A DNA stretch of 64,000 bases. It comes from Arcobacter suis CECT 7833 (lineage in GTDB: Bacteria > Campylobacterota > Campylobacteria > Campylobacterales > Arcobacteraceae). The DNA is taken from contig NZ_CP032100.1 in assembly GCF_003544815.1 (NCBI RefSeq), positions 1,922,001-1,986,000 of the forward strand, in the 5' to 3' direction. The notes below the pieces were generated by a model that searched no databases, was not told the origin of the DNA, and saw nothing but the letters and a program-made list of their open reading frames with translations. Shown here one piece after another: positions 8,635 to 38,280 of the stretch. How positions within the stretch are numbered: position 1 is the first letter of the stretch; each line of letters starts with the position of its first letter. Position numbers and translations under genes: made by a program.

Positions 8635-10104
8635 TTACGCAGCTACTGGTGTAGCATTTACTGGTTCTTTATCAAGTACTCTTCCACATCTAATAGTTTT
8701 ATAAATATTATATGCGAACATAAAGAATCCAATTAGGTATAATAACCCACCAACTGCTCTAATTGTATAGTATGGATGTAATACAGTTACTGTATCAATA
8801 AATGAATATACTAAAGAACCATATTCATCATATGCTCTCCACATCATACCTTGTGTAATACCTGCAATCCACATAGAAGTAAAGTATAAAACGATACCTG
8901 TAGTTTGTAACCAGAATTGTGTATCCATTAATGATTTAGAGTAAATTTCTCTTTTATACATTCTTGGAACCATATGGAACAATGCAGCCATAATCATAAA
9001 TACAACCCATCCTAAAACACCATCATGTACGTGTCCTGGAATCCAGTCAGTAAAGTGTGCGATAGCATTTACAGATTTAATAGCTTGAATTGGTCCTTCA
9101 ATTGTTGATAACATATAGAAAGTTGAAGCTAATACCATAAATTTGATTAGTGTATTTGTTTGTAATTGTTGCCACTCGCCCTTCATTGTTAAAAGCATAT
9201 TAATAGCTGATCCCCATGATGGTAAAATTAAAACAACTGACATTACAGAACCCATAGTTTGCATCCAATCTGGAACAGTTGCATAAATAAGATGGTGTCC
9301 ACCAGCCCATAAATAAACAAACAATAATCCCCAGAATGCTAAAATAGAAAGTTTATAAGAATAAACATTCTGTCCTGACTCTTTTGGTAAGAAATAATAA
9401 ATCATAGCAATAATTGGTACAGTAAATACAAAGGCAACAGCATTGTGTCCATACCACCATTGAACTAGTGCATCATTTGTACCTGAATACATAGAAACAG
9501 AGTGAATCCATGAACCATAACCAGATACTAAAGCTGTTGGAACTTCCATATTATTGAATAAATATAACATTGCAACTGCGATAAATGTAGCAATGAAATA
9601 CCATAATGAAATATAAAGAGTTCTTTCTCTTCTAATTCCAATTAATCCAAAAATTGAAATACCCCATAAAACCCACCATACAACAACTAAAATGTCTAAT
9701 GGCCACTCTAACTCAGCATACTCTTTTGAAGTTGTAATACCCATAAAAAGTGTAACAACAGCTAAAAGAATTGTAATAAAATATAAAACAAAATGTATCT
9801 TAGCAATTGCCATTAAAAAAGGTGACTCTTTTAATGAAACTTTTAATACTCTTTGCGAAATATAATACCACGCTGCAAATACTCCACTTAGTGTAAAACC
9901 AAATGTAACACCATTTGTATGAATTGGTCTTAATCTACTAAATGTACCATATTCTCCAGCTAAATGATTTAACTGTGGAAACGCCAATTGAAACGCAAGT
10001 ACAACACCGATAGTCATACCTATGATACCAAACAAAATTGCGACAATACTAAAAGCTTTTGCAACTGAGTAATCGTACTCAATTTGTGCACCGTTTTGCA
10101 TCAA
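8635..10104 (-). CDS. ccoN: cbb3-type cytochrome c oxidase catalytic subunit I
   Basis: Heme-copper oxidase catalytic subunit of 489 aa with about twelve membrane spans. His ligands are visible in IHTNGVTFGF (helix II), WWYGHNAVAF (helix VI, heme b3/CuB region), GGHHLIYATVPDW (CuB pair) and PGHVHDGVLGW (late helices). This is the oxygen-reducing, proton-pumping subunit of the microaerobic terminal oxidase. It is the first gene of a seven-gene minus-strand run (N, O, Q, P, DUF4006, microprotein, siroheme reductase). The ATG at 10104 has AGAGGAG a few bases upstream. A promoter-like element shared with two other genes lies about 115 bp upstream. Confidence 0.96.
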   Translation of the reverse strand: MMQNGAQIEYDYSVAKAFSIVAILFGIIGMTIGVVLAFQLAFPQLNHLAGEYGTFSRLRPIHTNGVTFGFTLSGVFAAWYYISQRVLKVSLKESPFLMAIAKIHFVLYFITILLAVVTLFMGITTSKEYAELEWPLDILVVVWWVLWGISIFGLIGIRRERTLYISLWYFIATFIAVAMLYLFNNMEVPTALVSGYGSWIHSVSMYSGTNDALVQWWYGHNAVAFVFTVPIIAMIYYFLPKESGQNVYSYKLSILAFWGLLFVYLWAGGHHLIYATVPDWMQTMGSVMSVVLILPSWGSAINMLLTMKGEWQQLQTNTLIKFMVLASTFYMLSTIEGPIQAIKSVNAIAHFTDWIPGHVHDGVLGWVVFMIMAALFHMVPRMYKREIYSKSLMDTQFWLQTTGIVLYFTSMWIAGITQGMMWRAYDEYGSLVYSFIDTVTVLHPYYTIRAVGGLLYLIGFFMFAYNIYKTIRCGRVLDKEPVNATPVAA

Positions 10105-10294: not shown

Positions 10295-10963
10295 TTACAC
10301 TTTATTCTGCTTATTAATATATTTTGCTTCTGCTAACACATTAGTTAAATATAATGATAGGTGTTGCATCTTACTTATAGTTGTTTGATTCATTAAAGGA
10401 GTATTTATTTTAATATCATTCATTTTTTTTATCTGAAGATTAATTTTATTATATATTTCAATTAAATTTAAGAAATCAAATTCTTCAATAAATCTAAAAT
10501 CTTTAAAACTGTAACCTTTTTCTTTCATATCAATAATTAAATATAATGCTAACATTTCTGGTATATAATAATTTTTACCATTATCAGAAAATAAATTCAT
10601 TTTACTAATAAATCTTTTAACTATTACATCATAAAAATATAGTCTAGGTTCCATAACTATTGCTTTAATTATACTTTCTTTTGAACTTTTATCAATTATG
10701 ATTTTATATATTTCTTCTATCGTAAATATATGCTTTAATAAAGAACTCTCGAGTTCTTTTAACTTTGTATATATTAAATTTTGTTCTTCATTTGTCATAT
10801 AACAACTATATCCGAAATCTATTTTATTATCTTCACTTTGAATATATTCACGAATAAGCTTTAAACAAAATATTAGTATAACTTCTACTTTTAAGTCTTT
10901 TAATGTTTTTCCTGTTGTCATTAAATAAAATTGTAAATTACTTTTAATATTATTTATTCTCAT
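10295..10963 (-). CDS. hypothetical protein, paralogue of the 36586-37197 protein
   Basis: Not recognised. It has 222 residues, mostly predicted helical, no signal peptide and no membrane span. It resembles the 203-aa protein at 36586-37197 along most of its length: LKDLKVEVILIFCLK against LRDIKTEALLVFIRT, then PRLYFYDVIVK against PLMVYYDTLIK, YYIPEMLAL against FWIPELVVI, and FDFLNLIEIYN against IDYIDLINRYD. The other copy sits directly before a CheA-like gene in a chemoreceptor/c-di-GMP operon, so a signalling role is possible here too. This copy stands alone between ccoN and another unknown gene, with its own promoter-like element. Confidence 0.65.
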   Translation of the reverse strand: MRINNIKSNLQFYLMTTGKTLKDLKVEVILIFCLKLIREYIQSEDNKIDFGYSCYMTNEEQNLIYTKLKELESSLLKHIFTIEEIYKIIIDKSSKESIIKAIVMEPRLYFYDVIVKRFISKMNLFSDNGKNYYIPEMLALYLIIDMKEKGYSFKDFRFIEEFDFLNLIEIYNKINLQIKKMNDIKINTPLMNQTTISKMQHLSLYLTNVLAEAKYINKQNKV

Positions 10964-23284: not shown

Positions 23285-26176
23285 ATGATAAATAAATTAA
23301 CATTATTTTCAAGGTTAAAAATGCGACAACTTTTATTTATTTTTATTATTTCTACTTTTTTATTTTCAAATGATTTAAAAACTGTATCAATACAATTAAA
23401 ATGGAAACATCAATTTCAATTTGCTGGATTTTATATGGCAAAAGAGTTAGGTTTTTATAAAGATATTGGCTTAGATGTAGAACTTAAAGAATTTGATAAA
23501 AATATGCATATTGTAAATGAAGTAACTGAACTTAAAAGTGATTTTGGGATAGATGATTCCTCTTTAATTTATCATAAATTAAATGGAGCAAATGTAGTTG
23601 CACTTTTCCCTATATTTCAAACTTCTCCAATTACTTTGATTACCCAAGAAAAGTTTTCAACTATAGAATCTTTACAAAATAAAAATATAGAATTTTCAAC
23701 AAATGAACTAGTAAATATTTCAATAAAAGCTATTTTTCAAGCACATAATATAGCCATTAAACCAATAACCCATTCTTTTTTTGTGGATAAATTTATTTCA
23801 AAAAAATCAGATGGAATGGTAGGATATATCTCAAATCAACCTTATTATTTGGACTTAAAAAATATAAAATATAATATATTTAATCCTAAAGAATTTGGTT
23901 TTGATTTTTATGGAGATATTATTTTTACTTCAAAAGAATTTGCAAAAAATAATCCAAAAATTGTGAGTGATTTTATAAAAGCAACTAAAAAAGGTTGGGA
24001 ATATGCCTTTTCTAATATTCCAGAAACTGTAAATTTAATCTCTCAAAAGTATAACACTCAAAATAAAACAAAAGAATCTCTAATTTATGAAGCAAATATG
24101 CTAAAAGAACTGAGTGGTTTTGGAACAAATTTTGGGAAAATAGAAAAAGAAAGAATAAATGAAATTGAAAATATCATAGCTTTATTATTTCCACAAAAAT
24201 ATAAAAGTTCAAATTTAGATGATTTTATCTGGAATGAAAAAGAAGAATTAATAAATTATTACAAAAACAATTATCTAAAAAATCAAAAAGAATTTACAGT
24301 TTGTGTTCATGATAATCTTTTCCCAATAGATGGAATAAATCAAGGGAAATTAACAGGTATTTCTGGCAATATTTTAAATGATATTGCAAAACAATTTGAC
24401 ATAAAATTAAAACCTATTCAAGAAAAAGATTTTAATAGTACTTTCAAAAACATAATAGCTGGAAAATGTGATATTTTAACAATTACTGCCGAAGAATCTT
24501 ACAAACAATATAAAGTTTTAAATAAAAGTGAGTTTTATTTAGATTCAAATCTAGTTATTATTACCAAAATTGACAAACCTTTTATGGAAGATAATCATTT
24601 TTTAGAAAATAAAAGATTTATTACTAGATATGATATATTTGAAAAATATCTACTAAATTTATATCCAAATATTGATATTAATGTTGATAACAATATAGAA
24701 AATGCTATTACAAAACTAGAAAATAATGCTGTTGATGGATATATTCTAGATAATATTACAGCTGATAATATTATTCAAAAGTTTGGTTATGGAAAATTTA
24801 AAATATCTGGTTTTTTAGGAAGCGAAAAACCAATTAGTGGTTCATTTGGTGTTATAAATACAAAACCTGAACTTTTAGAAATCATTAATTTAGGAATTAA
24901 TTCTTTTAGCAAAAAAGAGTTAGATCAAATAAAAGAAAACTGGAAAGTTACAAGATATAGCACTATTATTGATAATAGTTTAGTTTGGAGAATTATTACT
25001 ATTTTTATTATAGTTTTGATTTTTATTGTCTCTTTTACAATAGTTTTAAGACAACATAACAAAGAGTTAAATGAATGGCTAAATTCTACAATTGAAGGAA
25101 TTGCAATTTTTGAAAATGGAAAACTAATTAAAGCAAATAAACAGTTTTTAGCTATTTTGAATTATGAAAGTTTTGATGAAATTTATGAAAAAACCCATTA
25201 TGATTTTGTAGTTCCATGGGAACATCGTATTATAAAAAATAAATTAATTTCAAATCAAGAACCTTATGAAATAACTCTTATAAAAAAAGATGGTGAAAAA
25301 TTTGATGCTTTAGTAAAAGGTCATAAAATAGAAGGTAAAAATATAAGAATAAGTACAATCATTGACATAAGTGAATTAAAAAATACCCAAAGAAAATTAA
25401 AAAAACTAAATGTAAATCTAGAACATAGAATCCATGAAGAGATAGAAAAAAATAAAAATCAACAAACTATGATGTTTCAACAATCAAAACTTGCAGAAAT
25501 GGGATTAATTTTAAATATGATTGCCCACCAATGGAGACAACCTTTGAATAATATCTCTTTAATTGTAAATACAATCATTTTAAAACAAAAAAGAGAACGA
25601 TTACTGCTTGAAGATTTAAATAAATTAAAAACTGATTTTCAAAAACAAATAACTTATCTTTCAAATACTATTGATGATTTTCAAAATTTCTTTAAACCTA
25701 AAAAAGACAAAGAACTTTTTAAAATAAAAGATATGGTAACAACAACCTATTCTTTAATACAACCTCTTTTTGATAAAAATCAAATCAAATTTAATATTGA
25801 CATAGATTTAGAAACTATCTATTTTGGATATAAAAATGAGTTATCTCAAGTATTATTAAATATTTTAAATAATGCAAAAGATGCCTTACTCGAAAATAAT
25901 ATTACAAATAAGTTTATAAATATTTCTTTATCACAAGATGAAAATAATCTTATACTGAGTATAAAAGATAATGCAAATGGAGTAGATGAATCTATTCTTG
26001 GAAAGATTTTTGACCCATATTTTTCTACAAAAAGTAGCAAAAATGGTACAGGTCTAGGTTTATACATGGCAAAAATAATTATTACTGAACATTTTAACGG
26101 TGAAATAAATGCAAATAATATAAATGATGGGTTAGAAATAATTATACAACTTCCTAAAAAAACGGATATGGTTTAA
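23285..26176 (+). CDS. hybrid-input sensor histidine kinase with NMT1/THI5 and SBP domains
   Basis: Inner membrane sensor kinase of 963 aa. After a signal peptide (ending near residue 30) comes an NMT1/THI5-like solute-binding domain (about 35-300, VSIQLKWKHQFQFAGFYMA) and a second, SBP family 3-like domain (about 335-560, starting FTVCVHDNLFPIDG). One membrane span at about 567-590 leads to a PAS domain (600-705) and the kinase core: H-box LAEMGLILNMIAHQWRQPL near 740, N-box NILNNAKDAL, G1 DNANGVDE and G2 GTGLGLYMAK. Two different binding-protein modules in one sensor suggest sensing of small nutrients. The partner is likely the divergent regulator at 22494-23156. Confidence 0.85.
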   Translation: MINKLTLFSRLKMRQLLFIFIISTFLFSNDLKTVSIQLKWKHQFQFAGFYMAKELGFYKDIGLDVELKEFDKNMHIVNEVTELKSDFGIDDSSLIYHKLNGANVVALFPIFQTSPITLITQEKFSTIESLQNKNIEFSTNELVNISIKAIFQAHNIAIKPITHSFFVDKFISKKSDGMVGYISNQPYYLDLKNIKYNIFNPKEFGFDFYGDIIFTSKEFAKNNPKIVSDFIKATKKGWEYAFSNIPETVNLISQKYNTQNKTKESLIYEANMLKELSGFGTNFGKIEKERINEIENIIALLFPQKYKSSNLDDFIWNEKEELINYYKNNYLKNQKEFTVCVHDNLFPIDGINQGKLTGISGNILNDIAKQFDIKLKPIQEKDFNSTFKNIIAGKCDILTITAEESYKQYKVLNKSEFYLDSNLVIITKIDKPFMEDNHFLENKRFITRYDIFEKYLLNLYPNIDINVDNNIENAITKLENNAVDGYILDNITADNIIQKFGYGKFKISGFLGSEKPISGSFGVINTKPELLEIINLGINSFSKKELDQIKENWKVTRYSTIIDNSLVWRIITIFIIVLIFIVSFTIVLRQHNKELNEWLNSTIEGIAIFENGKLIKANKQFLAILNYESFDEIYEKTHYDFVVPWEHRIIKNKLISNQEPYEITLIKKDGEKFDALVKGHKIEGKNIRISTIIDISELKNTQRKLKKLNVNLEHRIHEEIEKNKNQQTMMFQQSKLAEMGLILNMIAHQWRQPLNNISLIVNTIILKQKRERLLLEDLNKLKTDFQKQITYLSNTIDDFQNFFKPKKDKELFKIKDMVTTTYSLIQPLFDKNQIKFNIDIDLETIYFGYKNELSQVLLNILNNAKDALLENNITNKFINISLSQDENNLILSIKDNANGVDESILGKIFDPYFSTKSSKNGTGLGLYMAKIIITEHFNGEINANNINDGLEIIIQLPKKTDMV

Positions 26177-26302: not shown

Positions 26303-27709
26303 ATGAAAATATTAGAACAATTAAAAACTAAAAATAAGCTATTGATACTTACATTAATAGCACAAGTTGGTTTTATTAGCATCGGAATTGCAGGAATACA
26401 TACACAAAATACTATGCTAATTATTATTTTAAATATTGTTTTTGGTTTTTTAATGGCTATATTAGGTCTTTTATTTAGCCAATCAATTGTAAATGGTTTA
26501 ATAAATTTTACTAACTCATTTGATGAGTTTTTAAAATTTTTATCTTTGAAAAACAATAAATATGTACCTATTCTTGTAACGGGAAATGATGAAATCTCAG
26601 AGCTTCATAAAAAATTAAATAGTGTTTCTATTGGATTTGATGACACTTTAAAAGCTGATATGAAAGTTTTAGGAGAAATAGTTATTACAATGGATAGAGT
26701 TGAACAAGGAATTTATAGTTGTAGAATAAAATCAAAAACTACAAATCCAATGATTATGACTTTAAGAAACACAATAAACAAAATGCTTGACGAAGTTAAT
26801 GAAGATATGACAAATCTTGTAAATTTACTAGAATCTTATTCAAAAGATGATTTTAAAAATCAAATAACAATCCACAAAAATATAAAAGGTGAAATGTTAA
26901 AAGTATTAACAAGCATTAATTCTTTGGGAAAAACTCTTTCAAGTAATGCTCAAAAAGATTTAAACAATGGACAAATTCTTGCTCAAAACTCTATTACAAT
27001 GGCTCAATCTGTAAACTCACTTGCTATAAAAGCAAACGAACAAGCAGCTTCCTTAGAACAAACAGCTGCTGCATTGGAGCAAATTACAAGTATTACAAGA
27101 AATACTGCTCAAAATGCTCAAAAAATGTCACAACTTGGAAATATCGTAAAAGGTGCTGTAAGTGGTGGACAAAAATTAGCAAATCAAACTGCAACTTCTA
27201 TGGATGATATAAATCAAGAGGTAACTTCTATAAATGAAGCAATTACAATAATTGACCAAATTGCTTTTCAAACAAATATTTTATCTTTAAATGCAGCCGT
27301 TGAAGCAGCAACTGCTGGAGAAGCGGGAAAGGGATTTGCAGTAGTTGCAGCAGAAGTGCGAAATCTTGCAAATAGAAGTGCAGATGCAGCACGAGAAATT
27401 AAAAATATAGTTTTAAAAGCAACACAAAAAGCAAATGAAGGAAAAAATATTAGTGATATGATGATTAAAGGTTATGAAGAACTTAACACTAATATAACTC
27501 AAACTATTGAAATTATTCAAGATGTTAGTATTTCAAGTAATGAACAAATGCAAGGAATTGAACAAATAAATGCAATGGTTACATTACTTGACCAAGTAAC
27601 TCAAGAAAATGCAATTCAAGTAAATAATGTAGCAACTATTTCTACACAAACTCAAAAAATGGCTGAAGAACTTGTAAATAAAGCCAAAACTAAAAATTTT
27701 AATTACTAA
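26303..27709 (+). CDS. CetA-like methyl-accepting chemotaxis protein without ligand domain
   Basis: 468 aa. Two closely spaced membrane spans (about residues 14-34 and 38-58) with only a few residues outside the membrane, then a HAMP-like/linker region and a complete MCP signalling domain; the hairpin tip is in [19 protein letters not shown] near residue 325. With no periplasmic sensor it cannot bind an external ligand in the usual way. The next gene (9 bp gap) encodes a PAS protein, as in the Campylobacter jejuni CetA/CetB energy-taxis pair, where the PAS protein supplies the sensor. The array of repeats found before the next two receptors is absent here; its own upstream region has TTCTTGCA and TACAAT. 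Confidence 0.8.
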
Positions 27710-27718
27710 GGCAAGACA

Positions 27719-28111
27719 ATGGGAAAAGAAACTATTTTAGATGAATATGCCTTTTTAGTGAGTGAAACTGATGAAAAAGGAATAATAAAATTTGCAAATA
27801 ATGACTTTTGTAAAATTGCAGAATACTCATTAGATGAATTAATGGGAAAACCACATAATATGGTAAGACATAAAGATATGCCAAAAATTGCCTTTAAAGA
27901 TTTGTGGGATACAGTTAAAAAAGGTGATATTTGGACAGGTTATGTAAAAAATGCAACAAAAAATGGTGGATATTATTGGGTTTATGCAACAGTTTATCCT
28001 TTTGAAAGTTGCGATGGTTCAATGGGTTATTTATCATGTAGAAAAAAAGCTTCAGAGCAAGAAATTGAAGTTTATGAAAAACTTTATAAAGAATTAATAG
28101 CCAAAGAATAA
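27719..28111 (+). CDS. CetB/Aer-type PAS protein
   Basis: Cytoplasmic single PAS domain protein of 130 aa. The motif KPHNMVRHKDMPKIAF followed by FKDLW and TKNGGYYWVYATV is the Aer/CetB type PAS, which binds FAD in characterised members and reports redox state. It is translated just after the receptor at 26303-27709 and is expected to signal through it, making a bipartite energy-taxis receptor. The same PAS subtype occurs as the first PAS of the HD-GYP protein at 34350-36545. FAD binding is inferred from family membership. Confidence 0.82.
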   Translation: MGKETILDEYAFLVSETDEKGIIKFANNDFCKIAEYSLDELMGKPHNMVRHKDMPKIAFKDLWDTVKKGDIWTGYVKNATKNGGYYWVYATVYPFESCDGSMGYLSCRKKASEQEIEVYEKLYKELIAKE

Positions 28112-28250: not shown

Positions 28251-30257
28251 ATGTTGAAAAATATAAGTGTAAAAAAACAGTTAACAATTCTTATAAGTAT
28301 TGCCATTTTAGGTTTTATTAGTATTGTTGGATTCAGTGTTGTACAAACAAATAAAATTTACGATGCTGCAAATTTTGGAAATGTAAATTCAGTTCCATCT
28401 ATTGTATTAATGACTCATATAGAGGAATCAGTGAGTACTATAAGAATTTTATCTCTTAATCATATTTTAGAAACTGATGAAAAAAGAATGCAAAGTATAG
28501 AAGAGAATCTAAAAAAGAATCTTACAGATATAGAAAAAGAGTTTGAAGAATATAGAAAACTTTTAACAGATAAAACTGATGAAGATATGCTAAAAGAAGA
28601 TATAGCTGCTTTTAATGATTATAATTCAAAAAGAGAAAAAGCTCTTAATTTTTCAAGGGAAAATAAAAATACTGAAGCAAGAGATGCTATTTTAGCAATC
28701 AGTCCTCTAACTGAACGATTAACTACTGCTTTAAATAAACACATGGATTATAATATTAAATTAAGTGATGAAGGTGCAAAAAATGCCCAAGAGATAAAAT
28801 CAACTTCTATGATGATTCAAACGGTAATTTCTATTGGAGCTATTCTTTTAGTTTTAGTTCTGGGAATTACTATTGTAAAATCAATATTAACTTCATTGTC
28901 AGTTTTTAAAGAAGGATTATTTAGTTTTTTTGCATACTTAAATAGAGAATCTTCAAAAGTTGAACTAATAAAAATAGATTCAAAAGATGAATTTGGAGAG
29001 ATGGCAAATGTAGTAAATGAGAATATAGAAAAAACACAAAAAGGCATAGAAGAAGATAGAAGATTAATAGATGAGACAATTAGTGTTTTAGGAGAGTTTG
29101 AGCAAGGTGATTTATGTCAAAGATTGAATTTAAATGTTTCTAATCCTGCTTTAATGCAATTAAAAACTGTATTAAATCAAATGGCAAATAACCTTGAAAA
29201 CAATATTGATAATGTTTTAAATATATTAGAAAAATACTCAAATTATAACTATTTAGAAAAAGTTCCAACTTCTAATGTAAAAGAACATCTTTTAAAACTT
29301 GCAGGTGGTGTAAATACTCTTGGTGAATCAATCACTCAAATGTTAATTGATAATAAATCAAATGGACTGACTTTAGATGAAAGCTCAAATATATTACTTT
29401 CAAATGTAGACAAACTAAATATTAGTTCAAATGAAGCAGCTACAAGCCTTGAAGAAACAGCAGCAGCTTTAGAAGAAATTACAAGTAATATTAGAAATAA
29501 CACAGAAAATATTGCAAAAATGTCTAAACTTTCAAGTGAAGTAACAGCTTCTGCAACACATGGTGAAAAACTAGCAAATCAAACAACAGTTTCAATGGAT
29601 GAAATAAATACACAAGTAAATGCAATAAATGAAGCAATAAGTGTAATAGATCAAATAGCATTCCAAACAAATATTCTTTCTTTAAATGCAGCCGTAGAAG
29701 CAGCAACAGCAGGAGAAGCAGGAAAAGGATTTGCAGTAGTTGCAGCAGAAGTAAGAAACCTAGCATCTCGTTCAGCAGAAGCAGCTAAAGAGATAAAATC
29801 TATTGTTGAAAATGCTACAAAAAAAGCAAATGAAGGAAAAGATATAGCTAATAATATGATTGTTGGTTATAAAGAACTAAATCAAAATATCTCTTTAACT
29901 ATAAATTTAATTCAAGATATAGAGATGTCAAGTAAAGAGCAATTAACTGGAATAGAACAAATAAATGATGCAGTAACTCAATTAGACCAACAAACTCAAC
30001 AAAATGCAGCAGTTGCTTCACAAACTCATGATGTTGCAGTTTTAACTGATGAAATTGCGAAATTAATAGTAAATAATGCTGATGAAAAAGAGTTTGAAGG
30101 AAAACATGAAGTAAAAGGGAAAAGTGTAAATAATAAAAATATTACAAAAAACATTGTTCCCCACATAGTTAAAAAAAGTTCAACAATATCATCAAAAACT
30201 ACTCCTAAAAAAATAGAAGCTACAAAAGCCTCTAGTGAAGAGTGGGAAAGTTTTTAA
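28251..30257 (+). CDS. methyl-accepting chemotaxis protein with 4-helix-bundle type sensor
   Basis: Chemoreceptor of 668 aa. First membrane span at about residues 12-30, a periplasmic helical region of about 150 residues (Glu/Lys-rich, like a 4HB_MCP domain), second span near 188-210, HAMP/linker, and an MCP signalling domain with the tip [14 protein letters not shown] near residue 475. The protein ends EEWESF, a WExF-type C-terminal tether like that used by CheR/CheB in other bacteria. It has its own promoter (array B) and a GC-rich terminator. Start ATG 28251 follows AAAGAAGGAATAAAAGA. Confidence 0.88.
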
Positions 30258-30259
30258 AT

Positions 30260-30281
30260 AATACCGACCTTGGTCGGTATT
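30260..30281 (+). terminator. intrinsic terminator after the 668-aa chemoreceptor
   Basis: ATACCGACC, 2 bases, GGTCGGTAT: a GC-rich perfect hairpin just behind the stop codon, with TTTC after it. It is the most GC-rich hairpin in the window and separates this gene from the following operon. Confidence 0.8.
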
Positions 30282-30307
30282 TCTCAAAATAAAATTTTAT
30301 CCTTTCC

Positions 30308-30359
30308 TCAGATTACTCACATTTAACTCTTAAAGCACTCAGATTCGTATGATACAATT
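30308..30359 (+). promoter_or_regulatory. four-repeat promoter array C (chemoreceptor/c-di-GMP operon)
   Basis: Half-sites start at 30308 (CTCAGATT), 30317 (CTCACATT), 30328 (CTCTTAAA) and 30339 (CTCAGATT), again 9, 11, 11 bp apart. TACAAT begins 15 bp after the fourth start (30354-30359). It precedes the chemoreceptor gene at 30441 and so the whole operon down to 38280. Confidence 0.7.
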
Positions 30360-30440
30360 TTTATAAGTATCTCTTAAAATATAAATTTATTTCAAGATAT
30401 AAAAATGCTAATTAAATAATAATAAAAAAGAGGGAAAAAA

Positions 30441-32567
30441 ATGAGGGTAAAAGTTAAATTAAGTCTAATTCTAGGAATGGTATTTATAAGTCTTGTGGGA
30501 TTTGTTATTACATTAAATATAGTCATTTCAGAATTAAAAGACTTTTCAAAAATGCAATTGTTAGATAAAAATTTAGATTCAAATTTGTTGGAATTAAGAA
30601 AAAATGAAAAAGATTTTATGCTTAGATTAGAGACTAAATATGTTGACAATTTTAATAAAACTACAGAACAAATTTTTCAAGATTTTAAAGAATTAAATGA
30701 ATTATTGGAAGATTATAATATTAAAATAAGTTCAATTGAGAATTATAAAGAATCAATAACTAAATACAAAAATTATTTTGAAATTTATACAAAAAAACAA
30801 ATACAAATAGGATTAACAGAAGATGAAGGTTTATATGGAAATTTGAGAAAAAGTGTACATGCAGTAGAAGATTATGCTAAAAAATCTCAAGAACAAAAAC
30901 TTTTATTATCAGTTTATAATTTAAGAAAACAAGAAAAAGATTTTATGTTAAGAAGAAATTTAAAATATGTTGATAATTTTAAAGTAATCATTGATGAAAC
31001 TTTATTAAGTTTAGATAATAATCCTAATAAAGAATCTTTAATTAAATATAAAGAATCTTTCTTAAACTTAGTAGAAACAGAAATTGAAATAGGATTAACT
31101 CCAAATGATGGTTTAAAATTAAAAATGAGAGAAATTGTTAAAGAAGCTGAATCATTTAATGAATCTTTCCAAAAAGAGTTATTTTCTACAGTTGAAGAAA
31201 TAATTTCTCTTTTAAATAAGATTATATTAACTTCAATTATATTGTTCGCAATTATCATTTTATCAATAATATATTTTACTTCTAAACAAATTTCTAATTC
31301 TTTACATACTTTTAAAGAAGGATTATTGTCATTTTTTTCATATTTAAATAAAGAATCATCAACCATAACTTTGCTTAATGAAAAAGTAAAAGATGAATTC
31401 GGAGAAATGGCACTGTTTGTAAATGAAAATATAAAACAAATAGAAAATACATTAAACCAAGATGTAGCCTTAATCGAAGATGCAAAAGTAGTAATGACAA
31501 GAGTAAATAATGGATGGTATGGACAATTTATAGAAAAGTCAACTTCAAATGCTTCTTTAGAAGAGTTTAAAAATAATGTAAATCAAATGATAAAAAGTAC
31601 AAGAGATAGATTTGCAGAAGTTGATGATATTTTAGAACAATATGCAAGACTTAACTATTTAGAAACTTTAAATATGCACCCAAATGATGAAAGAGGTGGA
31701 TTGTTTGAGAAATTAGTAACAGGTATTAATACTTTGCAAAACTCAATTACTCAAATGTTAGTTGAAAATAAAACAAATGGATTGACTTTAGATGAAAGCT
31801 CAAATATCCTTCTTGTAAATGTAGATAAATTAAATCAAAGCTCAAATGAAGCAGCAGCTTCTTTAGAAGAAACAGCAGCAGCTATTGAAGAGATAACTTC
31901 TAATATTAGAAATAATACAGAGAATATTTCAAAAATGGCAAGCCTTTCAAATGAAGTAACAGCTTCTGCAACACATGGTGAAAAACTAGCAAATCAAACA
32001 ACAGTTTCAATGGATGAAATAAATACACAAGTAAATGCAATAAATGAAGCAATAAGTGTAATAGATCAAATAGCATTCCAAACAAATATTCTTTCTTTAA
32101 ATGCAGCCGTAGAAGCAGCAACCGCAGGAGAAGCTGGAAAAGGATTTGCAGTAGTTGCAGCAGAAGTAAGAAATCTTGCATCACGAAGTGCAGAAGCAGC
32201 TAAAGAAATTAAGTCTATAGTTGAAAACGCAACAACAAAAGCAAATCAAGGTAAACAAATAGCTGGGAATATGATAGAAGGATATAAACAGTTAAATCAA
32301 AATATTACTCATACAATAAATCTAATCCAAGATATACAAAATGCTTCAAAAGAACAGTTACTAGGAATTGAACAAATAAATGATGCAGTAAATCAATTAG
32401 ATCAACAAACACAACAAAATGCTATGGTAGCAAGCCAAACACATGATGTAGCAGTATTAACAGACCAAATAGCGAAATTAGTTGTATCAAATGCTGATGA
32501 AAAAGAATTCAAAGGTAAAAACGAGGTTAAGGCTAAGAGCGTAAAAATAAAAAAGTCTAAAAGTTAA
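30441..32567 (+). CDS. methyl-accepting chemotaxis protein with HBM-like duplicated sensor
   Basis: Chemoreceptor of 708 aa, first gene of an operon reaching 38280. Two membrane spans (about residues 8-28 and 265-285) enclose a periplasmic helical domain made of two similar halves: [11 protein letters not shown] with KYVDNF, later [11 protein letters not shown] with KYVDNF, and [11 protein letters not shown] later [11 protein letters not shown]. This duplicated pattern fits the helical bimodular (HBM) sensor family, known to bind organic acids in Pseudomonas. The signalling domain tip is near residue 545. The C-terminus (KKSKS) lacks the WExF tether of the neighbouring receptor. The gene at 32571 starts 3 bp after its stop. 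Confidence 0.87.
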
Positions 32568-32570
32568 AAA

Positions 32571-34328
32571 ATGTTCATAAATCGTATATTAACTAAGAAT
32601 GATGGGCAAAAAATGAAAATACAAATTGGTGCCGAAATTTCAAAACAAAAAGAGTTAGAAAATCAAATCCTAAAAGAAAAAGATGATTTTATAAACTCTT
32701 TTAAAATATTAATTGATTCGATTTTAGAAGGAATTATCATCTATGATGAGAATACATATTGTATTAGAGTAAATGCCGTTGCACCTAAATTATTAGGATA
32801 TACAAGCCAAGAAATGATAGGAAAACATGCTTTAGATTTTGTAGCTCCTACATTTAAAGATGTAGTCAAAAAAGTAATACAAAATCACAATCAAGAACAA
32901 TATGAAGCGGAACTAATTCGAAAAGATAGTTCTATTTTGCCTGTTATATTAAGAAGTAGAGATTTAGTTTTATTGGGGAAAAAAATAAGAGTTACTGCAA
33001 TTATTGATATGAGTGAAATTAAGAAAAAAGAAAAAAAGATTTTAGAATTAGCTTATTATGACAGTTTGACAACTCTTCCTAATCGTTTATTGTTAAAAGA
33101 TCTTTTAGCTGTAATGATAAAAAGAGTAGAAAGAAATAATCATTATGGAGCATTATTATTTATAGATTTAGATAATTTCAAAATGGTAAATGACACAAAA
33201 GGTCATGATATAGGAGATTTTGTTTTAATTGAAACTGCAAAAAGATTACAAAATACGATAAGAGAAACAGATCTTATTTCAAGATTAGGTGGAGATGAAT
33301 TTATAATTGTTTTAGAAATACCTGAATCAAATAAAGAAGTTGCCATTAATAACATAAATATCGCTGCAAAAAAAATACTCGAAGAAATTAAAAAACCTTA
33401 TTTAATATCAAATTTTGATTTTAGATTAACAGTTAGTATTGGAATTGCTTTATTTGAAAATAATGAATTTTCAATAGATGAACTAATGAAATTTGCAGAT
33501 ACAGCTATGTATTCTTCAAAAGCCAATGGAAGAAATAGATTTACTTATTTTGACCCAATTTTACAACAAATGGTAGAACAAAAAGCTCATTTATTTGAAA
33601 GATTAGACAAAGCTATAGAAAAAGAATCAATGATTTTATACTATCAACCTCAAATAAAAATAAAAAACAATCAACCTCTAATAGTAGGAATGGAAGCTTT
33701 AATTCGTTGGAATGACGAAAAAATAATTCCTCCAAATGATTTTATTCCTTTAGCTGAAGAAACAGGACTTATTATTCCATTAGGAAAATGGATTTTAATA
33801 CAAGTAATGGAACAAATAAAAATTTGGGAAAATGATTTTATAAAAAAAGATTGGCAAGTATCTGTAAATATTAGTTATAAACAGTTTGAGAAAAATGAAT
33901 TTTTAGATTTAATAAAATCTTTAATAGAAGAATATCAAATTAATCCAGCTAAATTAAAATTAGAATTAACAGAGAGTTTATTGATTAAAAATACCCAAGA
34001 AAATTTAAATAAAATCAAAGAAATCAACAAACTAGGAGTTTCATTATCAATAGATGATTTTGGTACAGGATATTCTTCTTTAGCATATTTAAAACAATTG
34101 TCAATTAGTGAACTAAAAATCGATCAATCTTTTATTAAAGATTTAGTAATTGATTCTAATGATTTTATCATTGTAGAAACCATACTTTCAATTGGAGATA
34201 AATTTAATTTAGAAGTGGTAGCAGAAGGAGTTGAAACAAAAGAACAATATGAAAAACTATTATTAATGGGCTGTTCTTATTTTCAAGGGTATTTATTTGG
34301 AAAACCAAATAATCCAAATTTACTTTAA
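32571..34328 (+). CDS. PAS-GGDEF-EAL c-di-GMP enzyme
   Basis: Cytoplasmic protein of 585 aa with a PAS domain (about residues 45-155), a GGDEF domain with the active motif RLGGDEFII and an I-site RETD five residues before it (about 235-245), and an EAL domain (from about 335) with EALIRW, the DDFGTGYSS loop and KIDQSFI. Both halves keep the catalytic residues, so it could make or break c-di-GMP. It starts 3 bp after the chemoreceptor gene. An ATG at codon 15 (32613), behind GATGGGCAAAA, is an alternative start with a better ribosome binding site. No membrane spans. Confidence 0.88.
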   Translation: MFINRILTKNDGQKMKIQIGAEISKQKELENQILKEKDDFINSFKILIDSILEGIIIYDENTYCIRVNAVAPKLLGYTSQEMIGKHALDFVAPTFKDVVKKVIQNHNQEQYEAELIRKDSSILPVILRSRDLVLLGKKIRVTAIIDMSEIKKKEKKILELAYYDSLTTLPNRLLLKDLLAVMIKRVERNNHYGALLFIDLDNFKMVNDTKGHDIGDFVLIETAKRLQNTIRETDLISRLGGDEFIIVLEIPESNKEVAINNINIAAKKILEEIKKPYLISNFDFRLTVSIGIALFENNEFSIDELMKFADTAMYSSKANGRNRFTYFDPILQQMVEQKAHLFERLDKAIEKESMILYYQPQIKIKNNQPLIVGMEALIRWNDEKIIPPNDFIPLAEETGLIIPLGKWILIQVMEQIKIWENDFIKKDWQVSVNISYKQFEKNEFLDLIKSLIEEYQINPAKLKLELTESLLIKNTQENLNKIKEINKLGVSLSIDDFGTGYSSLAYLKQLSISELKIDQSFIKDLVIDSNDFIIVETILSIGDKFNLEVVAEGVETKEQYEKLLLMGCSYFQGYLFGKPNNPNLL

Positions 34329-34349
34329 AAAATAAAAGGATAATTTAAT

Positions 34350-36545
34350 ATGAAAATTCTTGCATATAATCCTCTTGTTGAATTTAGGGCAAAAGATTTT
34401 AATATTTTAATTATTGAAGATTCTTCTTCTATGATTAAAATTATTGATACTATTTTCAAAGATAAAGGATTTAACACTTTTTTATCAACTACTCTAAAAG
34501 ATGCAAGAGAAAAAATAAATTCAATCAAAATAGACTATGTTATTTTAGATATAAATCTCCCTGATGGAAATGGTTATGAACTAATAAAAGAACTAAGTTC
34601 TTCGTTAGTAAAAATAATAGTTCTTACTTCACAAACTGATTCTCAATTGAGGGAAATTTCTTATCAAAAAGGAATAATTGATTTTATAAATAAAGATAAA
34701 AATTTTATATACAAAATCTTTGAAATCCCTAATCTAATAAAACAACTAGAAAAAAATAGAACAAAAACAATTTTAATAATAGATGATTCTTTTGTTGTAA
34801 AAGAACAACTAAAAGATATATTTGAAAATAGAAATTATAGTGTTTTAATTGCTTCTAATACAACTGAGGCTTTAAATTTAATTAACACAAATAAAATTCA
34901 TTTGATGTTATTAGATTTGGAATTAGAAAAAGAAAATGGTTTTGATTTTTTATTAAAAAATAGAAAAGTGATTTTGGATGAATTAAAAATCAAAGTTATG
35001 ATTATAACTGGAAATATTTCATCAACTATACTAAGAGATGCTTTTAGATTAGGGGTTAGAGATATAATCAAAAAACCTTATGTAATAGAAGAATTGATTT
35101 TAAAAACAGATATGTTTATAAATGATAAAGACAATGAAAATGAAAGTGAAGCAAAAACACAACTTTTAAAACAATATAAAAATGCAGTTGATAGAAGTTT
35201 TATTGTTTCTAAAACAGATGATAATGGAATTATAACTTATATAAATGAAGCATTTTGTAAAATTTCTGGTTATAAAGAAGAAGAACTTTTAGGAAAATCC
35301 CACAATATTGTAAGACATAAAGATATGCCCTCTTCTACTTTTAAAGATATGTGGAAAACAATAAAAGAGTTAAAAAAACCATGGATGGGAACAATAAAAA
35401 ATAGAAAAAAAGATGGAAGTGATTATTGGGTTCAAACTATAATAAATCCAATATTAGATGAAAATAATAATGTAATAGAATACATTGGAATTAGAACCGA
35501 TATAACTGAAATAGAAAAAGCAAAACAGCAATTAAAAGAACAATATAATATCTCTCAAAACAACTTTCAAGAAATTATGAATTTATCAAAACTTTATGAA
35601 AATGCAATGGATGAAAGTAATATCATTTTAAGAGTAAATCAACTTGGAAATATAACTTATGTAAATGAGAAATTTTATACAATTAGTGGATATACCCAAG
35701 AAGAACTAATTGGGAAACCCTATGATAATATCGAAAGAGTTTTCCCTCCAAGCCAAGATGATAATAAAATAAGTAAACATCTAAAAAGTGGAAAAATCTG
35801 GAATGGTCAAATACATAATATTTTTAAAGATGGGAAAATTCATTATTTTCTAGCAACCGTAGTTCCAATAATAAATCTTCAAGGTGAAACTTTAGAATAT
35901 ATGAGTATTAGAAAAGAAATAACAGAAGTAGTTGAATTACATAAAGAAATAGAAGAAACCCAAAGAGAAGTTATTTATAAAATGGGAGAAATAGGAGAAA
36001 GCAGAAGTAATGAAACTGGAAATCATGTAAAAAGAGTTGCTGAATACTCAAAACTTTTGGCAAAATTATATGGTTTAAGTGAAAAAGAGTGCGAAATTCT
36101 TTTTACTGCTAGTCCAATGCATGATATAGGAAAAGTTGGAATTCCTGATTCTATTTTAAATAAACCTGGAAAACTAACTCCTGAAGAATGGGAAATTATG
36201 AGAAAACATTCGATGGTTGGTTATAACATTTTAAAAAACTCAAAAAGAGAAATTCTAAAAGCAGCAGCAATAGTTGCAAGAGATCACCATGAAAAATGGG
36301 ATGGAAATGGTTATCCAAGAAAAACAAAAGCTGAAGAAACTCATATTTATGGAAGGATTACTGCAGTTGCTGATGTATTTGATGCGTTAGGAAGTTCAAG
36401 ATGTTATAAAAAAGCTTGGAAAGATGAAGATATTTTCAAACTGTTAGAAGAAGAAAAAGGCAAACAATTTGAACCTAAATTAATAGATTTATTTTTTAAA
36501 AATATTGACAAATTTAAAGAAATTAGAGATAAATATAAAGATTAA
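34350..36545 (+). CDS. REC-REC-PAS-PAS-HD-GYP response regulator
   Basis: 731 aa. Two receiver domains (Asp in YVILDINLPDGNGYEL near residue 65 and LMLLDLELEKENGF near 190), two PAS domains (about 275-390 and 415-540) and an HD-GYP phosphodiesterase domain with HDIGKVGIPD near 590, HHEKWDGNGYP near 650 and the late ITAVADVFDAL. HD-GYP domains hydrolyse c-di-GMP. The first PAS carries SHNIVRHKDMP, the same subtype as the CetB-like protein, suggesting redox input. The first receiver lacks a clear Lys at the usual place (FINKDKNF is the nearest). It lies 21 bp after the GGDEF-EAL gene with AAAAGGATAA as ribosome binding site. Confidence 0.88.
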   Translation: MKILAYNPLVEFRAKDFNILIIEDSSSMIKIIDTIFKDKGFNTFLSTTLKDAREKINSIKIDYVILDINLPDGNGYELIKELSSSLVKIIVLTSQTDSQLREISYQKGIIDFINKDKNFIYKIFEIPNLIKQLEKNRTKTILIIDDSFVVKEQLKDIFENRNYSVLIASNTTEALNLINTNKIHLMLLDLELEKENGFDFLLKNRKVILDELKIKVMIITGNISSTILRDAFRLGVRDIIKKPYVIEELILKTDMFINDKDNENESEAKTQLLKQYKNAVDRSFIVSKTDDNGIITYINEAFCKISGYKEEELLGKSHNIVRHKDMPSSTFKDMWKTIKELKKPWMGTIKNRKKDGSDYWVQTIINPILDENNNVIEYIGIRTDITEIEKAKQQLKEQYNISQNNFQEIMNLSKLYENAMDESNIILRVNQLGNITYVNEKFYTISGYTQEELIGKPYDNIERVFPPSQDDNKISKHLKSGKIWNGQIHNIFKDGKIHYFLATVVPIINLQGETLEYMSIRKEITEVVELHKEIEETQREVIYKMGEIGESRSNETGNHVKRVAEYSKLLAKLYGLSEKECEILFTASPMHDIGKVGIPDSILNKPGKLTPEEWEIMRKHSMVGYNILKNSKREILKAAAIVARDHHEKWDGNGYPRKTKAEETHIYGRITAVADVFDALGSSRCYKKAWKDEDIFKLLEEEKGKQFEPKLIDLFFKNIDKFKEIRDKYKD

Positions 36546-36548
36546 AAA

Positions 36549-36588
36549 AGGAGGAAAAGAGAGTTTCTAACTTTCTTATATAAACATG
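36549..36588 (+). promoter_or_regulatory. Shine-Dalgarno separated from start by a hairpin
   Basis: A strong AGGAGG (36549-36554) lies 31 nt before the only usable ATG (36586), too far for normal initiation. Between them GAGAGTT (36559-36565) and AACTTTC (36569-36575) can pair in RNA with one G-U. Folding would shorten the effective spacing to about 14 nt. An in-frame stop at 36568-36570 excludes an earlier start. Confidence 0.4.
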
Positions 36589-37197
36589 ACTTGTAAAAAT
36601 AGAGTAAAACCAAAACTTCTTAGAGATATAAAAACAGAAGCTCTTTTAGTGTTTATAAGAACAACTTTAGAACAATGTTTTCATCAAATTGATAATGTAG
36701 GTTATAATTTTAGATTAGGGAATGATGAAGATAATGAAATTGTTTATTCTTCTTTAAAAAAATTATTAGAACAACTTCAAGATACAGTTATAAACTCAAC
36801 TTATTTAAGAAGTTTAATTGAAAATGCCCATAAAAATGCAACTTTAAAAATACTTGCAAAAAAAGAAGAACCTTTAATGGTTTATTACGATACTTTAATA
36901 AAAACCATTGAAGTTTGTCTTCCAAATGGAAGTTTCTGGATACCTGAATTGGTTGTTATTTCACTTTTAAGTGAATGGATAATAGAAGAAGAAAAAACTG
37001 CTTATTTTTATCCATATTTAAAAGATATTGATTATATAGATTTGATAAATAGATACGATAATTCAAAAAAAGAATTAGATAATGAAAAAAAAGAGATTAT
37101 AATGAGTATGTACAAAATCTCTTCAAAGTTAATTGAGAAGTTAAAAAAAGTAGAATATAAAATAAATACAACTAGAAAAAAAACTAAAAGGAAATAA
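36586..37197 (+). CDS. hypothetical protein of the two-member family, signalling operon
   Basis: Not recognised. 203 aa, helical, soluble, with a Lys-rich C-terminus (NTTRKKTKRK). It is a paralogue of the protein at 10295-10963 (see there for matching segments; FWIPELVVI and YYDTLIK are the best conserved). The stop codon is directly followed by the ATG of the CheA-like gene, so the two are translationally coupled and may act together. The segment IENAHKNATLKIL has a His in a helix, but the paralogue has no His there, so it is not a convincing HPt site. Confidence 0.7.
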   Translation: MTCKNRVKPKLLRDIKTEALLVFIRTTLEQCFHQIDNVGYNFRLGNDEDNEIVYSSLKKLLEQLQDTVINSTYLRSLIENAHKNATLKILAKKEEPLMVYYDTLIKTIEVCLPNGSFWIPELVVISLLSEWIIEEEKTAYFYPYLKDIDYIDLINRYDNSKKELDNEKKEIIMSMYKISSKLIEKLKKVEYKINTTRKKTKRK

Positions 37198-38280
37198 ATG
37201 ATTAGTTCAAATGTAACAATAGATTTACAAAAACTAGAAAAACTTTTAAATAAAGTTGGAGATTTAGTAATAACAAACTCAATGATGGCTCAAAGTGTTG
37301 ATAATTTACCAGCTAGTGAAGAAAAAAAGAATTTAGTTGAAAAAATCACTCTTTTTCAAAGACATATAGTTGAACTTCAAGATTATGCAACAGATATAAG
37401 AATGATTAAGTTTGAAAGTATGTACACAATTTATAACAATATTATTCAAGAAATATTACCAGCAAATAAATCAATTAAATTACAAATAGTTGGTGGAGAA
37501 ACTAAAGTAGATAAATCTTTGGTTGAACATTTAGATTTATCTATTAAAACTTTGATTACAAATAGTGTTCTTTATGGAATAGAAACAAAAGAAGAAAGAA
37601 CAGCAAAAGATAAAAATCCAGAAGCTACTATAAAAATAATCGCTCAACAACTAAATGGACAAATGTCATTTTGTATAGAAGATGATGGAATAGGATTTGA
37701 TAAAGATGAACTGGATTTTGAAGAAGAGTTTCCTAAAATCAAAGAAGATAATCAACTAAAAAATGTTTATAAAATTAAAGAAAATGTAGAAAAATTAAAT
37801 GGAAATATAGAAATAAAAAGTGATTTAGAAGAAGGTTTTTCTTTTACAATAACAGTTCCTTTAACTCACTCTATTTTAGATGGTTTAAATATAAAAATTG
37901 GAGATAATATTTTTATTTTACCAACTTCATCAATAGTTGAATCAATTCAACCTACAAAGGAGATGATAAAACTAGTAGGTGATGGAAGTTCAGCTTTACT
38001 TATGTTAAGAGATGAATTTATACCAATAATAAGATTATATGAATTTTTACATATTGTTCCAAAAACACAAGATTTAAGCCAAGGTATTTTAATAATCGTA
38101 AAATCAGGAACACAAAAAGCAGCCTTTTTTATAGATGAATTTTTACAACAGCAACAAGTAGTTTTAAAAGCAATAGAAACTAACTTTAAAAAAGTTGATA
38201 GTGTTGCAGGAGCAACGGTAAGAGGTGATGGAAGTATTGGAATTATAATTGATGTTAAAAGTATTATTGAAAATTCATAA
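37198..38280 (+). CDS. CheA-like protein without HPt domain and with degenerate ATP site
   Basis: 360 aa. Residues 1-70 resemble the CheA dimerisation domain (DLQKLEKLLNKVGDLVITNS), 95-225 the ATPase domain and 225-360 the CheW-like domain (ILPTSSIVESIQP, then FIDEFLQQQQVVLKAIE and VAGATVRGDGSIGIIIDV). The P1 phosphotransfer and P2 domains are missing. In the ATPase part the N-box (LITNSVLYGIE) keeps its Asn but has Tyr for the usual His; the G1 box EDDGIGFD is present; the GRGVGMD-type G2 box is absent, with QLKNVYK in its place, and the later GxGT reads EEGF. It probably couples receptors without being an active kinase. It is the last gene of the operon. Confidence 0.82.
   Translation: MISSNVTIDLQKLEKLLNKVGDLVITNSMMAQSVDNLPASEEKKNLVEKITLFQRHIVELQDYATDIRMIKFESMYTIYNNIIQEILPANKSIKLQIVGGETKVDKSLVEHLDLSIKTLITNSVLYGIETKEERTAKDKNPEATIKIIAQQLNGQMSFCIEDDGIGFDKDELDFEEEFPKIKEDNQLKNVYKIKENVEKLNGNIEIKSDLEEGFSFTITVPLTHSILDGLNIKIGDNIFILPTSSIVESIQPTKEMIKLVGDGSSALLMLRDEFIPIIRLYEFLHIVPKTQDLSQGILIIVKSGTQKAAFFIDEFLQQQQVVLKAIETNFKKVDSVAGATVRGDGSIGIIIDVKSIIENS

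Follow-up and report, generated by a model that had tools for sequence, protein, structure and literature searches.

The gene at positions 37198-38280 (forward strand) of the 64,000-nucleotide stretch of Arcobacter suis DNA analysed here (the window) codes for an apparently catalytically dead paralogue of the chemotaxis kinase CheA, which we refer to as CheL. CheL has lost the phosphate-carrying domain and the ATP lid but has kept the parts that build arrays, and it is therefore probably a structural or tuning component rather than a kinase. We consider it reasonably likely that CheL acts in receptor baseplates through its P3 and P5 domains, altering the composition of the array. The relevant features of the window are:

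26303-28111, +: an MCP gene without a recognised sensor domain and a single-PAS protein gene; the pair lies directly before CheL in four related genomes
28251-32567, +: two chemoreceptor (MCP) genes in the CheL gene cluster
32571-36545, +: genes for a GGDEF-EAL protein and a REC-REC-PAS-PAS-HD-GYP protein (Pfam), between the MCPs and p203
36586-37197, +: p203, a 203-aa helical protein and candidate partner, with no conserved His
36820-38180, no strand: 1361-bp tract identical to a second p203-CheL copy (G000:C1 near 1,497,700-1,499,100)
37198-38280, +: CheL, a 360-aa CheA paralogue lacking P1/P2 and the lid (Pfam, alignment and relatives)
37198-37410, +: P3 dimerisation helices, residues ~1-71 (PF02895; modelled by AF2 as two long helices)
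37420-37863, +: reduced P4 (motif alignment; fold match to CheA P4 in the PDB)
37864-38277, +: P5 CheW-like domain (PF01584, 79 bits; conserved P5 positions)

Domain organization of CheL

The CheL frame starts with an ATG, placed immediately after the stop codon that ends the 203-aa frame. A preliminary description of this DNA had assigned it P3, part of P4 and P5 and neither P1 nor P2, with which the Pfam matches and the relatives agree. H-kinase_dim (PF02895) matches residues 6-64 with 45.4 bits (cut-off 23), HATPase_c matches residues 115-223 with 35.2 bits (cut-off 26.4) and the CheW domain (PF01584) matches residues 229-358 with 79 bits (cut-off 23.5), and the layout is thus P3 (dimerisation), a reduced P4 (ATPase) and P5 (CheW-like). 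No Pfam match to Hpt (P1) or P2 is present in CheL, and its score of 224 bits against the NCBIfam CheA equivalog NF007835 is below the cut-off of 793. Of the hallmarks of a CheA it has P3 and P5, and lacks the Hpt and the complete set of P4 motifs.

A search among solved structures finds CheA proteins only as relatives of CheL. The AF2 model has an overall pLDDT of 54, with a good P4 and a failed P5. CheA structures are the top PDB matches of the modelled P4, which indicates that its fold is still CheA-like; because the model failed in P5, the integrity of that domain is judged from sequence, and it appears to be preserved. A frameshift concealing a P1 domain upstream was considered and rejected, as the upstream ORF represents a conserved separate family and the CheL orthologues share the start site.

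Loss of the ATP-site motifs

Alignment with the full-length CheA of the same genome confirms that GRGVGMD is absent from CheL, but this is not the simple replacement by QLKNVYK that had been proposed; deletion has removed G2 and the F box together with most of the lid, and little is left of the stretch that holds them in CheA. The N-box HIIRNSLDHGIE of CheA corresponds to TLITNSVLYGIE in CheL, in which the N-box Asn stays and the His, Arg and Asp are lost; the G1 core DDGxG (DDGIG) is retained. Each of the 15 CheL sequences in the comparison has other residues in place of the N-box His, Arg and Asp, and none has an F box or an intact GRGVGMD. The N-box Asn and G1 are retained in nearly all members, mostly with DDGxG, and some nucleotide binding by CheL could remain. 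The lid shrinks stepwise among the relatives as the proteins shorten, from 397 aa (L104, in which part of the lid is left and the F box and G2 are gone) through 377 aa (L103) and 357-362 aa to 343-345 aa.

Chemotaxis genes elsewhere in the genome and a second CheL copy

The source genome is a single contig of 2.64 Mb that codes for three H-kinase_dim proteins, these being the full-length CheA, the window CheL and a second CheL. The full-length CheA, whose presence the preliminary description had suggested checking, has 694 aa and is beside cheY, cheR, cheD and cheB (assigned by sequence). Its Hpt is the only one detectable genome-wide, and a separate Hpt protein serving CheL is excluded as far as the sequence goes. 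That CheL is a normal kinase for CheY is very unlikely, as had been concluded earlier, given that the loss of motifs is common to the orthologues and that a full-length CheA elsewhere carries the sole Hpt found. The genome also holds one free CheW, 25 MCPs and a 306-aa frame of CheV size with a CheW domain. Separately, we note a large protein that combines dCache sensor domains with a CheW domain at its C terminus and has no MCP or kinase domain, and a similar second CheW match in a frame with an internal stop (L170:1597-4179; G000:C1:836862-837272).

The second CheL protein is identical to that in the window except for the last residue, and the two loci are 461 kb apart. The 1361-bp tract of identity is flanked on the p203 side by sequence of ~72-85% identity, and the match stops around the CheL stop codon. 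The simplest reading is that this probably reflects recent gene conversion between the loci. In several draft genomes contigs break right at CheL or p203, as they do with repeats.

Distribution of CheL

Orthologues with the same domain loss, for which the preliminary description had proposed a search, are found in 13 other genomes (343-397 aa, one of them degenerate), such that CheL-type genes are present in 14 of the 104 Arcobacteraceae genomes searched. Eleven of these are among the 31 of its own genus, where the distribution is patchy (11 of 31 species), two are in a second genus, of which one copy (G102) lacks P5, and one is in a third. Scanning the genomes of 84,980 species gives seven CheL loci, whose labels are Arcobacter, Aliarcobacter or Epsilonproteobacteria in every case; the scan used two short motifs, which distant CheL forms can escape. 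Because other species have genes of the same architecture, CheL is neither a chance frame nor a sequencing error. Two short frames from other families of this order (G388, G390) were rejected as relatives; they are ordinary CheA genes, with an Hpt, that are cut off at contig ends.

Origin and selection

In a maximum-likelihood tree the 15 near-complete CheL sequences form one clade (support 100/99) that is sister to Arcobacteraceae CheA (joint branch 100/99; Arcobacteraceae CheA clade 81/63) and lies apart from the CheA of E. coli and of the remaining Campylobacterales. The exact point at which CheL and CheA split is uncertain because the CheL branches are long.

Among 36 species pairs, which are phylogenetically non-independent and in some cases touched by gene conversion, the median dN/dS values of CheL are 0.126 for P3, 0.272 for P4 and 0.083 for P5, and those of CheA are 0.022, 0.066 and 0.044. 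In the nine species with both genes, amino-acid identity is 0.89 (P3), 0.70 (P4) and 0.89 (P5) for CheL, and 0.99, 0.95 and 0.95 for CheA. These comparisons indicate that all CheL domains are under purifying selection, which is weakest on P4. Of the positions that at least 95% of CheA sequences share, CheL retains 80% in P5, 51% in P3 and 40% in P4, and 24 of the 31 P5 positions universal in CheA are present in more than 90% of CheL sequences. Together, the dN/dS values and the retained positions show that CheL is maintained, with the kinase domain as its most relaxed part, and the pattern of P3 and P5 conservation fits the scaffold role suggested in the preliminary description.

Gene neighbourhood and p203

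Four arrangements recur at CheL loci. The first is MCP-p203-CheL-MCP; the second is MCP-PAS-CheL at the site of the window copy, with the same genes downstream; in the third CheL adjoins an OmpR-type regulator; and the fourth, in UBA6211, is MCP-CheW-p203-CheY-CheL-CheV-MCP. An MCP gene is in the cluster at 11 of the 17 CheL loci examined, and those with no adjacent MCP gene include the orphan CheL of L104 and the 343-345-aa forms beside the OmpR-type regulator. Seven of the 25 MCP genes are within the two CheL clusters, which make up 0.8% of the genome, a count that points to a link with receptor clusters rather than single receptors because MCP genes cluster anyway. The MCP and single-PAS pair in the window resembles CetA/CetB, a Campylobacter pair that acts in energy taxis. 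A predicted sensor kinase with NMT1-like and SBP_bac_3 binding domains, PAS and HATPase_c is also encoded upstream of these receptor genes (23285-26173).

A regulatory link between CheL and the c-di-GMP enzymes encoded upstream, raised in the preliminary description, draws largely on the window locus and is not supported by most other genomes, in which the neighbours are MCPs, a PAS protein, p203, an OmpR-type regulator, or CheW, CheY and CheV. The OmpR-type regulators (244-250 aa) belong to a single family, with 48-91% identity across nine loci in the vicinity of CheL or p203/MCP (L004:4246-4992, L072, L074-L077, L081, L082 and L090), and have no adjacent kinase.

p203 has no match in Pfam or NCBIfam, and a profile search of the PDB gives none either. 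The family is helical and almost confined to Arcobacteraceae; a different family of the order gives a single clear match (G138). Its genes also follow MCPs where CheL is absent and lie next to SulP permease genes. The latter form a conserved pair, in which p203-family genes overlap or abut the starts of SulP-type sulfate permease genes (L088, L089, L094-L097, L176, L179). A distant p203 relative with 22% identity is coded at window positions 10295-10963 (reverse strand), beside a COX1-family oxidase gene (8635-10104). The possibility that p203 is a separate Hpt was rejected, as it has no conserved His and an hhalign comparison with CheA P1 gives a probability of 0.2%.

Relationship to known systems

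The closest system is the Arcobacteraceae full-length CheA (F7 class, cheYARDB operon), which shares homologous P3 and P5 domains and the P4 fold with CheL and forms its sister clade. CheL and the CheA of its own genome are 55% identical in P5, and in P3 have 35% identity and 67% positives; however, the full-length CheA has an Hpt and an intact ATP site, whereas CheL lacks the Hpt, the F box, G2 and most of the lid. A short form of E. coli CheA, made from an internal cheA start, has no working phosphorylation site and is present in the same arrays, with P4 intact.

A P1-less layout is not new in itself, contrary to the suggestion that no described family has it, because CheA4 of Cereibacter (Rhodobacter) sphaeroides has P3-P4-P5 without P1/P2 and is an active kinase paired with CheA3 (PMC10782961). 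A split CheA of this type has a functional P4 and an Hpt partner in its operon, whereas CheL has lost the catalytic motifs and there is no Hpt partner gene beside it. CheA3 has a degenerate HATPase, its P4 missing helices and ATP/Mg residues (PMC10782961), and is like CheL in that respect, but it retains a working Hpt and CheL has none. Vibrio ParP has no kinase and enters the core unit with a P5/CheW-like (AIF) domain (PMC5706961). CheL would work in a ParP-like way, as a protein without kinase activity that brings a CheA-P5/CheW-like domain into the core unit, a likeness predicted from P5 conservation; ParP, however, lacks P3 and P4 and tethers arrays to ParC, and CheL is outside the ParP family. 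Azospirillum CheA paralogues, whose P3 domains are 59% similar, form mixed arrays (PMC6759762). By analogy with ParP and these mixed arrays, integration of CheL into arrays is possible.

A survey of CheA architecture reports P1, P3, P4 and P5 in all CheA sequences and a P4 without substantial variation in size, and attributes a missing Hpt to assembly errors or to an Hpt encoded in the same operon (PMC10782961). The CheL clade is an exception to this, as it is conserved, has lost the ATP lid and has no neighbouring Hpt. A CheA relative that lacks both Hpt and lid and conserves the assembly domains appears to be undescribed; a literature search of open-licence papers found none on a pseudokinase CheA or CheA-like proteins in Arcobacter, and the available part of a Campylobacterota chemosensory survey makes no mention of a CheL-like protein.

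Proposed role of CheL

The alignment and the tree support a scenario in which one duplication of the Arcobacteraceae chemotaxis kinase gave rise to CheL, which then lost P1/P2 and subsequently the lid of the ATP site and both the F and the G2 box. It would have been kept because P3 and P5 still permit dimerisation and binding to CheW and receptor tips, as their conservation suggests, and it would occupy CheA positions in baseplates as homodimers or CheL/CheA heterodimers. CheL might there lower the kinase density and cooperativity of the array, or provide a kinase-free baseplate unit for the neighbouring receptors that recruits p203 and kinase-less response regulators; phosphate for these would come from the P1 of the full-length CheA, the only one in the genome, or from non-chemotaxis kinases. 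We infer array membership, a lack of ATPase activity and an effect on array output accordingly as parts of one proposal, whose fullest form is tentative: CheL as a pseudo-CheA, a non-catalytic baseplate subunit encoded with particular receptors and homogenised by conversion, which sets the kinase density or links receptors to p203 and kinase-less regulators. Against the baseplate reading speak the N-box Asn and G1 that nearly all members keep, the CheL genes that lack a neighbouring MCP gene and the patchy distribution within the genus.

Several other readings of CheL have been weighed against this. As a split kinase of the CheA4 type it would act in trans on the P1 of the full-length CheA or on another Hpt; the shared P3-P4-P5 layout (PMC10782961), the one P1 in the genome and the retained N-box Asn and G1 accord with this, but it is improbable given the deletions in the ATP site and the loss of the N-box His in every member, the status of P4 as the fastest-evolving domain, the intact P4 that the full-length CheA has of its own and the finding that p203 is not an Hpt. 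CheL may instead be an allosteric regulator that binds nucleotide or the P1/P4 of CheA without catalysis, for example as a heterodimer that inhibits or biases CheA trans-autophosphorylation. The preserved P4 fold, the N-box Asn and the mostly preserved DDGxG fit such a role, as does a P4 dN/dS that at 0.27 is still below 1; the P3 identity of only 35% between CheL and CheA speaks against it, and we consider it unlikely.

There is only a slight chance that CheL acts outside the flagellar baseplate by docking a response regulator or p203, linking a subset of receptors to a non-motility output. The OmpR-type regulator recurring in nine loci and the CheW-p203-CheY-CheL-CheV row of UBA6211 accord with such a module, yet no OmpR-type regulator is beside the window copy, and p203 is also found next to SulP permease genes where CheL is absent. 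Finally, the erosion of P4 and the loss of P5 from the G102 copy could be taken to mean that CheL is a decaying gene or an assembly artefact, which is very improbable in view of the purifying selection on P3 and P5, the open frames in 15 sequences and the two near-identical copies in the source genome.

Should the baseplate role proposed for CheL be true, chemosensory arrays would have a pseudokinase class. Provided that CheL is indeed an array component, it would be a natural test both of what the assembly domains of CheA do in the absence of kinase activity and of the way in which the sensitivity of the array depends on kinase density.
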